64,000 bases of DNA, taken from the NCBI GenBank assembly GCA_021845985.1, contig JAJZES010000039.1:46079-110078 (forward strand). The letters run 5' to 3'. The translations under genes and the position numbers were made by a program. Numbering within the stretch: the first letter of the stretch is position 1; the number at the start of each line of letters is the position of its first letter. Shown in pieces: positions 54,600 to 58,534 of this stretch. The notes below the pieces were generated by a model. The model did no database searches, was not told where the DNA came from, and was given only the letters and a program-made list of their open reading frames with translations. The DNA comes from Pseudomonadota bacterium (GTDB lineage: Bacteria; Pseudomonadota; Alphaproteobacteria; Acetobacterales; Acetobacteraceae).

Positions 54600-55585
54600 G
54601 CGCCCGCCCGCAGCCACGCCACCGCGTCGCGCACCGCCAGCGCCGCCGGCCGCGGCGCGTAGCCGAGTTCGGCGATGGCCTTGGCCGAGGAAAAAAACAT
54701 CTTCTTGCGCGCCATCCGCAGATGGTCGCGCGTCACCAGCGGCGTCATGCCGGTCAGCCGCGCCACCCCCTCCATGCCGAGCGCCAGCGGCCACAGCAGC
54801 CGGTTCGGCAGGCGGATGCGCGGCGCCGCGCGCCCCGCCGCCTCGGCGATCAGCCCCAGCAATTCGCGCAGATGCAGATTCTCCCCGCCCAGGATGTAGC
54901 GTTCGCCGATCCGCCCGCGCTCCAGCGCCAGCATGTGGCCCTCGGCCACGTCATCGACATGCACCACATTCAGCCCGGTATCGACATAGGCCGGCAGCCG
55001 CCCGGCGGCGGCGTCGGCGACCATGCGCCCGGTCGGCGTCGGCTTGCGGTCGCGCGGGCCGATCGGCGTCGCCGGATTGACGATCACCGCCGGCAGCCCG
55101 GCGTCGCGCACCAGCGCCAGCACCGCCTGCTCGGCGCGGTATTTCGAGCGTTTGTAGATGCCGGCGATGGCCGCCTCGGTGACCGGCGTGGTCTCGTCGG
55201 CCGGCGAGCCGTCGGCGGTCAGGCCGAGGGCGGCGACGCTGCTGCAATAGACGATACGCTCCACCCCGGCGGCCAGCGCCGCGCCCATCAGCGCCTCGGT
55301 GCCGCCGACATTGGCGCGCAGCATCGCCGCCGGATCGGGCACCCAGATGCGGTAATCGGCGGCGACATGCACGACATGGCGGCAGCCGGCGACGGCGCGC
55401 TGCAGGCTGGCCGGGTCGGTCAGATCGCCCTCCGCCGGTTCCACTGCCAGACCATCGAGGTTGTGCCGCGGCGTGCCCGGCCGCAGCAGCACGCGCACAC
55501 GATGGCCGCGGCCGAGCAGCGCGCGCGCCACCGCCGAGCCGACGAAGCCGGTGCCGCCGGTCAGCAAAGTGAGGTCGCCGCTCAT
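54596..55585 (-). CDS. hpnA: Hopanoid-associated sugar epimerase
   Basis: LLTGGTGFVGSAVARALLGRGHRVRVLLR; VHVAADYRIWVPDPAAMLRANVGGT; IAGIYKRSKYRAEQAV. Confidence 0.93.
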   Translation of the reverse strand: MSGDLTLLTGGTGFVGSAVARALLGRGHRVRVLLRPGTPRHNLDGLAVEPAEGDLTDPASLQRAVAGCRHVVHVAADYRIWVPDPAAMLRANVGGTEALMGAALAAGVERIVYCSSVAALGLTADGSPADETTPVTEAAIAGIYKRSKYRAEQAVLALVRDAGLPAVIVNPATPIGPRDRKPTPTGRMVADAAAGRLPAYVDTGLNVVHVDDVAEGHMLALERGRIGERYILGGENLHLRELLGLIAEAAGRAAPRIRLPNRLLWPLALGMEGVARLTGMTPLVTRDHLRMARKKMFFSSAKAIAELGYAPRPAALAVRDAVAWLRAGA

Positions 55586-56421
55586 GCCGCCGGGTCTATA
55601 GACTGCGGCCCCGCCGCTGCCAAAACCTGGCGGATGAAGGCCGTGGTGTCGGCCAGCACCGGGCAGCGATGGCGCAGCAGCGGCGCCAGGGCGCTGACGA
55701 TGCCGATATGGCCGATATGCGGATAGAGCCGCGCCTCGGCCTGGCCGCCGGCGGCGCTCAGCCGGGCGGCAAGCGCCAGGGAATTGCGCGGATAGCACGT
55801 CCTGTCCGCCCCGCCATGCAACAACAGCATCGGCGGATGCGTTGCACCGGCATGGTTGATCGGCTGCGTCAGGCGCAGATCGGCCCCGGCAGGGGCGAAC
55901 ACGGCGCGGATATCGGCCCCCAGGATGGGCAGGAAATCATAGGGGCCGGCCAGCCCCACCACCCCGGCCAGCGCCGCGCGCCCGGCGCCGAGCCAGCGCG
56001 CGTCGAGCGCCAGCATGGCGGCGATGTAGGCGCCGGCCGAATGTCCGGCGACGAAGATGCGTCGCGGATCGCCGCCCTGCGCCGCGGCGCCGCGGCCGAC
56101 GGCGGCGACCGCTGCCGCCGCGTCCTCCAGGAAGGCGGGATAGCCGATCTCCGGGTGCAACCGGTAATCCGGCACCGCCACCAGCAACCCGCTGCGCGCC
56201 AGCGTCGCGGCGGCGAACATGTAGTCGGCGCGGGCGCCGCTCTGCCACGCCCCGCCGTAGAACCAGACCAGCACCGGCAGCGGCGGCGGCGTCGCGGCCG
56301 GACGGAACAGGTCGAAGACCTGGCGCGGATGGCTGCCGTAGCGCAGGCCGCGCTGGATCGACAGGCCGGTGGTGGCGATGCTGGCGTTGAGCAGATCGAC
56401 GGGAGACGGCAGCCGCAGCAT
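55582..56421 (-). CDS. Alpha/beta-hydrolase (carboxylesterase-like)
   Basis: VLVWFYGGAWQSGARADYMFAAATLARSGLLVAVPDYRLHPE; GHSAGAYIAAMLALD; ATGA overlap with hpnA. Confidence 0.88.
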   Translation of the reverse strand: MLRLPSPVDLLNASIATTGLSIQRGLRYGSHPRQVFDLFRPAATPPPLPVLVWFYGGAWQSGARADYMFAAATLARSGLLVAVPDYRLHPEIGYPAFLEDAAAAVAAVGRGAAAQGGDPRRIFVAGHSAGAYIAAMLALDARWLGAGRAALAGVVGLAGPYDFLPILGADIRAVFAPAGADLRLTQPINHAGATHPPMLLLHGGADRTCYPRNSLALAARLSAAGGQAEARLYPHIGHIGIVSALAPLLRHRCPVLADTTAFIRQVLAAAGPQSIDPAA

Positions 56422-56548
56422 GGGGTCCAGACATCAGGCCAAGGCATGCAGTATCGGAAGCCAACCGGCCGTCGCCAAGCCACCATTGCGCTTGTCGCCG
56501 GGCGCGGATCGTGACCAATCGAAAACAGCGCAGCGGAGGTCGCTCGAA

Positions 56549-58534
56549 ATGGCCGGACTCTTGGGATTCTTTAACCATTCCGACCTGCCGCCGCACGGTT
56601 TCTGCCTGCTCTGGGACCCGACGCTGATCTGGCTGCATGTCGTGTCCGACGCGCTGATCGGCGTCGCCTATTATTCGATCCCGCTGGCTCTGGCCTATTT
56701 CGTGCTGCACCGGCGCGACCTCGCCCTGCGCTGGGTGCTCGGCCTGTTCGCCGGCTTCATCCTGGCCTGCGGCACCACCCATTTCCTTGAAATCTGGGTG
56801 CTGTGGCACCCCGACTACGCGATCCAGGGGCTGGTCAAGCTGCTCACCGCGGCGATCTCCATCGCCACCGCCGTGCTGCTGTGGCCGCTGGTCATCCGCC
56901 TGATCAGCTTCCCGACGCCGGCGCAGTTCCGCGCCGTCACCGACCAGTTGGCCAGCGAGGTGGTCGGCCGCCAGCGCGCCGTCACCTCGCTCACCCGCTC
57001 CGAGCAGAGTCTGCGCCTGCTGCTCGAAGGGGTCACCGACCTCGCCATCTTCATGCTCGATCCGGGCGGGCGGATCAGCAGTTGGAACAGCGGCGCCGCG
57101 CGCATTACCGGCTACACCGAGCGCGAGGCGATCGGCCAGCATTTCGCCGCCCTCTACACGCCGCAGGAGCGCGGTGACGAGCTGCCGCTGCGGGCGCTGG
57201 AAACGGCGGCGCGGGTCGGCAAGATGCACAGCGAGGGCTGGCGGGTGCGCAAGGACGGCAGCCAGTTCTGGGCCAGCATGATGATCGAGGCGCTGCACGA
57301 CGACAGCGGCACACTGATCGGCTTCGCCAAGGTGACGCGCGACATCACCGAGCAGCGGCAGGCGGCGCTGGCGCTCGATCAGACGCGGGCGGCGCTGGCG
57401 CAGGCGCAGAAGATGGAAACCGTCGGCCAGCTCACCGGCGGCGTGGCGCACGATTTCAACAACCTGCTGACCGCCATTCTCGGCGGCGCCGACCTGCTCA
57501 GCCGCCGCGTCGCCACGCTCGACGACACCTCGCGCCGGGTGCTCACCGGCATCACCGACGCGGCGCAGCGCGGGGCGGTGCTGGTGCAGCGGCTGCTCGC
57601 CTTCTCGCGCAAACAGACGCTGCGGCCGCAGGCCACCGACATCAACCAGCTTCTCGCCGCGATGTCGGAGCTGCTGCGGCGCGCCCTCAGCGAGCGGGTC
57701 CAGGTCGAGACGATGCTCGCCGGCGGCGTCTGGCCGTGCTTCGTCGATCGCAACCAGTTGGAAAACGCCGTCCTCAACCTCGCCATCAACGCCCGCGACG
57801 CCATGCCGGCGGGTGGGCGGCTGACGCTTGCCACCGGCAACGCCACGCTCGCCGCCGGCGACATTCCGGCCGGCGACTATGCCACCCTCAGCGTCGGCGA
57901 TTCCGGCACCGGCATGGACGCGGCGACGCTGGCCCGCGCCTTCGAGCCGTTCTTCACCACCAAGGCGGAGGGCGCGGGCACCGGCCTCGGGCTGAGTCAG
58001 GTCTATGGCTTCGTCCGCCAGACCGGCGGCGACGTGCGCATCGACAGCGCCCCCGGCCAGGGCACCACGGTCTGCATCTACCTGCCGCGCCATCGCGGCG
58101 GCGGCGTCGAGGCGCGCCGCGCCATCGCCGAGGACATCAAGCCGCCGCGCGGCAGCGAGACGGTGCTGGTGGTCGAGGACCACGCCGATGTCCGCGTCTA
58201 TGCGGTCGAGGCGCTGAGCCATCTCGGCTACCGGGTGCTGGAGGCGGCGAACGCCGAGTTCGGGCTGGAACTGCTGGCGCGGCACGGCGAGATCGCCGTG
58301 CTGTTCACCGATGTCGGCCTGCCGGGCAGCAGCGGCCGGGCGCTGGCCGACGAGGCGCGGCGGCGGCGGCCGGGGCTGCGGGTGCTGTTCACCACAGGCT
58401 ATGCCTGCGACGCCATCGCCCAGCACGGCGTGCTCGACACCGGGCTGGACGTGCTGCCCAAACCCTATACGGTGGAGCGGCTGGCGCGCACCCTGCGCGC
58501 GGTGCTGAGTGCGGCGGCGGTGGTGCCGGGCTGA
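56549..58534 (+). CDS. Hybrid sensor histidine kinase with N-terminal ETR1-like ethylene-binding domain, PAS, HisKA/HATPase and REC
   Basis: SDALIGVAYYSIPLALAYFVLHRRDLALRWVLGLFAGFILACGTTHFLEIWVLW; PAS ISSWNSGAARITGYTEREAIG; QLTGGVAHDFNNLLTAILGGADLL; HATPase GTGLGLSQVYGFVRQTGG; REC VLVVEDHADVRVYAVEAL…LPKPY. Confidence 0.9.
   Translation: MAGLLGFFNHSDLPPHGFCLLWDPTLIWLHVVSDALIGVAYYSIPLALAYFVLHRRDLALRWVLGLFAGFILACGTTHFLEIWVLWHPDYAIQGLVKLLTAAISIATAVLLWPLVIRLISFPTPAQFRAVTDQLASEVVGRQRAVTSLTRSEQSLRLLLEGVTDLAIFMLDPGGRISSWNSGAARITGYTEREAIGQHFAALYTPQERGDELPLRALETAARVGKMHSEGWRVRKDGSQFWASMMIEALHDDSGTLIGFAKVTRDITEQRQAALALDQTRAALAQAQKMETVGQLTGGVAHDFNNLLTAILGGADLLSRRVATLDDTSRRVLTGITDAAQRGAVLVQRLLAFSRKQTLRPQATDINQLLAAMSELLRRALSERVQVETMLAGGVWPCFVDRNQLENAVLNLAINARDAMPAGGRLTLATGNATLAAGDIPAGDYATLSVGDSGTGMDAATLARAFEPFFTTKAEGAGTGLGLSQVYGFVRQTGGDVRIDSAPGQGTTVCIYLPRHRGGGVEARRAIAEDIKPPRGSETVLVVEDHADVRVYAVEALSHLGYRVLEAANAEFGLELLARHGEIAVLFTDVGLPGSSGRALADEARRRRPGLRVLFTTGYACDAIAQHGVLDTGLDVLPKPYTVERLARTLRAVLSAAAVVPG

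Follow-up and report, generated by a model that had tools for sequence, protein, structure and literature searches.

Judging from its sequence and predicted fold, the hybrid histidine kinase encoded in the window (the whole stretch of 64,000 nucleotides that we analysed) is very likely an ethylene receptor that depends on Cu(I) and acts by His-Asp phosphorelay, akin to ETR1, SynEtr1 and AzoEtr1. Its N-terminal membrane domain keeps, at constant spacing, all seven residues that are essential for ethylene binding in Arabidopsis ETR1. Table 1 lists the features of the gene.

Table 1. Positions in the window of the kinase gene and its parts.
Feature	Position	Strand	Evidence
Whole gene, EBD-PAS-HisKA-HATPase-REC hybrid histidine kinase, 661 aa	56549..58534	+	intact ORF, Pfam domains, motifs
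GGAGG, Shine-Dalgarno-like, nine bases 5' of ATG	56535..56539	+	sequence reading
ETR1_N ethylene-binding domain (EBD), residues 1-120; predicted helices 24-54, 61-86, 90-119	56549..56908	+	Pfam PF25487; AlphaFold model pLDDT 92.3
Helix 1 binding residues D34, Y41, I44, P45	56648..56683	+	alignment
Helix 2 binding residues I71, C74, H78; C74 and H78 predicted Cu(I) ligands	56759..56782	+	alignment
Signalling helix 124-145, connects membrane domain to PAS	56918..56983	+	AlphaFold model
PAS domain, residues 156-271	57014..57361	+	Pfam
HisKA, residues 293-356; phospho-acceptor H301 within AHDFNN	57425..57616	+	Pfam and motif
HATPase_c, residues 400-514; N box (N414), DSGTGM, GTGLGL	57746..58090	+	Pfam and motifs
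Receiver (Response_reg), residues 539-649; phospho-acceptor D588, acidic D543 or neighbour, K638	58163..58495	+	Pfam and motifs

An ETR1-like membrane domain joined to an intact hybrid kinase

The reading frame runs unbroken from the ATG at 56549 to the TGA at 58534 (661 aa), and no consensus sigma-70 promoter was found upstream of the gene. The initial annotation had proposed an ETR1-like N-terminal domain, and the Pfam profile ETR1_N bears this out, matching residues 26-120 with an E-value of 1.3e-36 for the full-length protein and 3.4e-38 for residues 1-130. A chance match is excluded because the score reaches 130 bits (range 125-130), far above the cut-off of 27. The sequence has three hydrophobic segments, with midpoints near residues 40, 70 and 107. 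Behind this three-TM region, the Pfam domains follow in the order read earlier, namely PAS, HisKA, HATPase and the protein's own REC domain. The protein has the HisKA H box, the HATPase_c N and G boxes and the REC phospho-acceptor Asp of a hybrid histidine kinase, and none of its catalytic motifs is disrupted, in the kinase or in the receiver (H301, N414, DSGTGM, GTGLGL, D588 and K638). Identity with the cell-cycle kinase CckA was rejected: the scores of 358 and 287 bits fall below the NCBIfam cut-off of 1000, and the match is confined to the PAS-kinase-receiver part of the protein.

In the alignment with ETR1, D34, Y41, I44, P45, I71, C74 and H78 correspond one-to-one to D25, Y32, I35, P36, I62, C65 and H69. 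The offset is +9 at all seven residues, and the stretch from D34 to H78 is free of gaps. The ETR1 numbering in this alignment is consistent with the published residues. The same seven residues are common to AzoEtr1, taken from the Sp7 plasmid record, which serves as an independent check. Agreement with both receptors confirms the seven binding residues and unchanged spacing of the initial annotation, whose Cys-x3-His pair is C74 and H78.

Both the Cys and the His are kept in 84 of 87 EBDs, and all seven residues in 63 of the 87. The EBD could instead be a decayed sensor, leaving the protein a constitutive or PAS-driven kinase. Ligand residues have indeed been lost in some relatives, where C...R replaces C...H (for example, in L118 and L119). 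In the window protein, however, the binding residues are unchanged and the reading frame is intact, and two further species of the genus have orthologues, with EBDs 67-70% identical, that keep all seven residues. We therefore consider decay very improbable here. As for L118 and L119 themselves (EBD matches at 1501-1788), they come from two genomes belonging to a single genus; Arg stands in place of the His ligand and further binding residues are altered, so that these kinases have probably lost ethylene binding.

An AlphaFold monomer model based on a 16-sequence alignment (pLDDT 92.3) has three long N-terminal helices, with C74 and H78 separated by one turn of helix 2. With only two sequences the pLDDT was 63, too low to rely on, and it was the 16-sequence alignment that raised the score. 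No solved structure of the domain was found by sequence search, nor by fold search at E < 0.001, which left none for use as a template or for comparison. In a model of the ETR1 membrane domain, C65 and H69 hold Cu(I) at the dimer interface (PMC6586836), and C74 and H78 map onto these two residues. Our model is of a monomer, and it is from this correspondence that we infer a Cu(I) site at the dimer interface of the window protein.

How the receptor could signal

We propose that the receptor would be a membrane-bound dimer in which C74 and H78 of helix 2 hold Cu(I), with D34 close by, and in which ethylene would be bound inside the membrane. Binding would shift the helix bundle and, by way of helix 124-145 and the PAS domain, alter autophosphorylation of H301. 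The analogy with AtETR1 and SynEtr1 suggests that ethylene would lower this autophosphorylation; inhibition of the kinase by ethylene has been proposed for relatives (PMC11819568). Phosphate would pass from H301 to D588 of the fused receiver and then to a response regulator, probably via a histidine phosphotransfer protein. We found no ethylene-related partner, and ACC deaminase gave no match over the cut-off.

It could also be that the Cu(I) site is kept while the natural input is something other than ethylene, such as copper itself, a different small alkene, CO or the redox state, and that the PAS domain supplies a second input. The ETR1_N domain is present in many bacteria, and ligand specificity has been tested in only a few relatives. 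SynEtr1 is a dual ethylene/light receptor (PMC11819568). Against this, conservation extends beyond the Cys/His pair to all seven ethylene-binding residues, and AzoEtr1, a close relative, both binds and responds to ethylene. A different input is thus unlikely in our view, and ethylene remains the preferred ligand.

The hopanoid-type neighbours are not kept beside the fetched orthologues

The initial annotation described the kinase gene as divergent from a hopanoid operon. The divergence is real and the cluster is there, but the immediate neighbour is an alpha/beta-hydrolase gene (55582-56421, minus strand), and the hopanoid-type genes lie behind it (two squalene/phytoene synthases, an amine-oxidoreductase-type desaturase, a squalene-hopene cyclase and others). 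Downstream, the gene for a SIS-domain protein is convergent. With divergent orientation and a gap of 127 bases to the hydrolase gene that heads the cluster, the kinase gene might be thought to regulate hopanoid synthesis. However, 11 neighbouring genes were tested and none stands beside the fetched orthologues, which come from G001 (16.5 kb read), G003 and Rhodovastum; in the last of these the orthologue is on a plasmid, flanked by transposases. The comparison is strongest for G001 and Rhodovastum, as some orthologue contigs are short (that of G003 measures 7.6 kb). The implied link to hopanoids therefore finds no backing among the orthologues: because the neighbourhood is not conserved, the adjacency is best read as accidental, and we regard regulation of hopanoid synthesis as extremely improbable. 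For the same reason, the gene context gives no hint of the receptor's output.

Distribution of the domain and probable host phototrophy

The host genome holds a single EBD gene copy. The domain occurs in four of the five genomes of the genus, one each, in 61 of 299 sampled family genomes (59 over the cut-off; ~20%) and in 29 of 398 sampled phylum genomes (~7%), and was found in none of 14 control genomes. By EBD, the nearest named relative is Rhodovastum atsumiense, a culturable bacterium in which two EBD genes were found on plasmids, and the family is therefore most likely Acetobacteraceae. In the EBD tree, the window protein clusters (support 0.98) with the proteins of two species of the genus, of Rhodovastum and of two more members of the family, and AzoEtr1 falls on a neighbouring branch. 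G004, a third species of the genus, has a copy that lies on a different branch and is 38% identical over its full length, so the genus has gained or lost EBD genes on more than one occasion. Several other genomes share the order EBD-PAS-kinase-receiver with G001, Rhodovastum and Bradyrhizobium sp. AT1, and the fused form is thus not unusual.

Several variants were seen. Elsewhere in the family, G711, G688, G561, G500 and others have three to five ETR1_N matches each, which suggests receptor expansion in certain genera. A frame change near residue 172 interrupts the G003 orthologue (L131:1468-3452); it could be either a sequencing error of the draft assembly or a real break. Two IMG/VR contigs (279 kb and 350 kb) also carry the domain, in one case joined to a short sensor-kinase-like region (L171:2974-4089) and in the other as a stand-alone 139-aa EBD with no kinase (L172:2992-3411). 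These contigs may be viral or mis-sorted bacterial DNA.

A search of the host for nitrogenase-like proteins returned only BchN, BchB, BchY and BchZ (L140-L143, on contigs C9 and C36), and no nitrogenase NifD/NifK. Since the nitrogenase-type genes are these four, we dropped for this host a link between ethylene and nitrogen fixation as in Azospirillum. The presence of bchN, bchB, bchY and bchZ indicates that the host is probably an anoxygenic phototroph. Across the family, BchY is found in 35 of 59 genomes with an EBD versus 61 of 240 without (odds ratio 4.3, Fisher p 1.7e-6), and, counted by genus, in 20 of 30 versus 21 of 72 (p 7e-4), statistics that are uncorrected for genome size or phylogeny. 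The co-occurrence is above expectation, and we treat it as a lead only, because neither factor was controlled and family members with small genomes may lack both genes. It agrees with a suggestion in the literature that microbes encounter ethylene formed by the action of sunlight on dissolved organics (PMC6682694). One could go further and imagine that, in bacteriochlorophyll-bearing Acetobacteraceae, the receptor would sense ethylene from sunlight-degraded dissolved organic matter as an indirect light or habitat cue rather than as a plant signal, a speculation that we consider improbable as it stands.

Comparison with known ethylene receptors

To our knowledge, very few bacteria (Synechocystis, Azospirillum) have been shown by experiment to perceive ethylene. 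The window protein does not represent a new receptor class: bacterial receptors of this sort have been described before, and it belongs to a known kind, since the domain is present in ~20% of sampled family genomes and ~7% of sampled phylum genomes and the hybrid order recurs in other Alphaproteobacteria. It is useful as a test case rather than surprising. With EBD, kinase and receiver fused in one protein, and with an orthologue group of its own in a lineage that appears to be phototrophic, it makes a compact system for testing the ligand, the phosphorelay and the ecological reason for ethylene sensing separately from nitrogen fixation and root colonisation. According to a review, bacterial ethylene-binding proteins carry a wide range of output domains (PMC7700396).

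Among the closest known systems are the Rhodovastum atsumiense protein WP_150045232 (L125) and a hybrid kinase of Bradyrhizobium sp. AT1 (L015), which share the EBD-PAS-HisKA-HATPase-REC order and are 58% and 44% identical over their full lengths. The former differs in being plasmid-borne and next to transposases. We know of no ethylene test for either kinase.

Similar to Arabidopsis ETR1, the window protein has a C-terminal receiver fused to the kinase, and the two EBDs are 36.5% identical (115 aligned positions), with the seven residues at the same spacing. ETR1 has a GAF domain where the window protein has PAS. In plants, the receptors signal to a Ser/Thr kinase, for the most part without the use of histidine kinase activity (PMC11819568). 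SynEtr1 of Synechocystis, compared by description, is likewise a bacterial ethylene receptor kinase with phosphorelay signalling, but it is also a light receptor and has a separate regulator, Slr1213.

AzoEtr1 of Azospirillum brasilense Sp7 is a close relative that has been tested: its first 130 residues bind 14C-ethylene (PMC11819568), and its EBD is 52% identical to that of the window protein. In both, the seven residues are followed by PAS and a histidine kinase, and in both systems the receiver is without an output domain. At the AzoEtr1 locus (L124), we find an ORF of 525 aa that overlaps, at its stop, a response-regulator ORF of 135 aa, matching the published description of Sp7. The receiver AzoRR-etr1 is thus a separate, overlapping gene in Azospirillum, whereas that of the window protein is fused to the kinase. 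The two receivers align at 32.5%, and the fusion therefore supports the published proposal that AzoEtr1 and AzoRR-etr1 cooperate.
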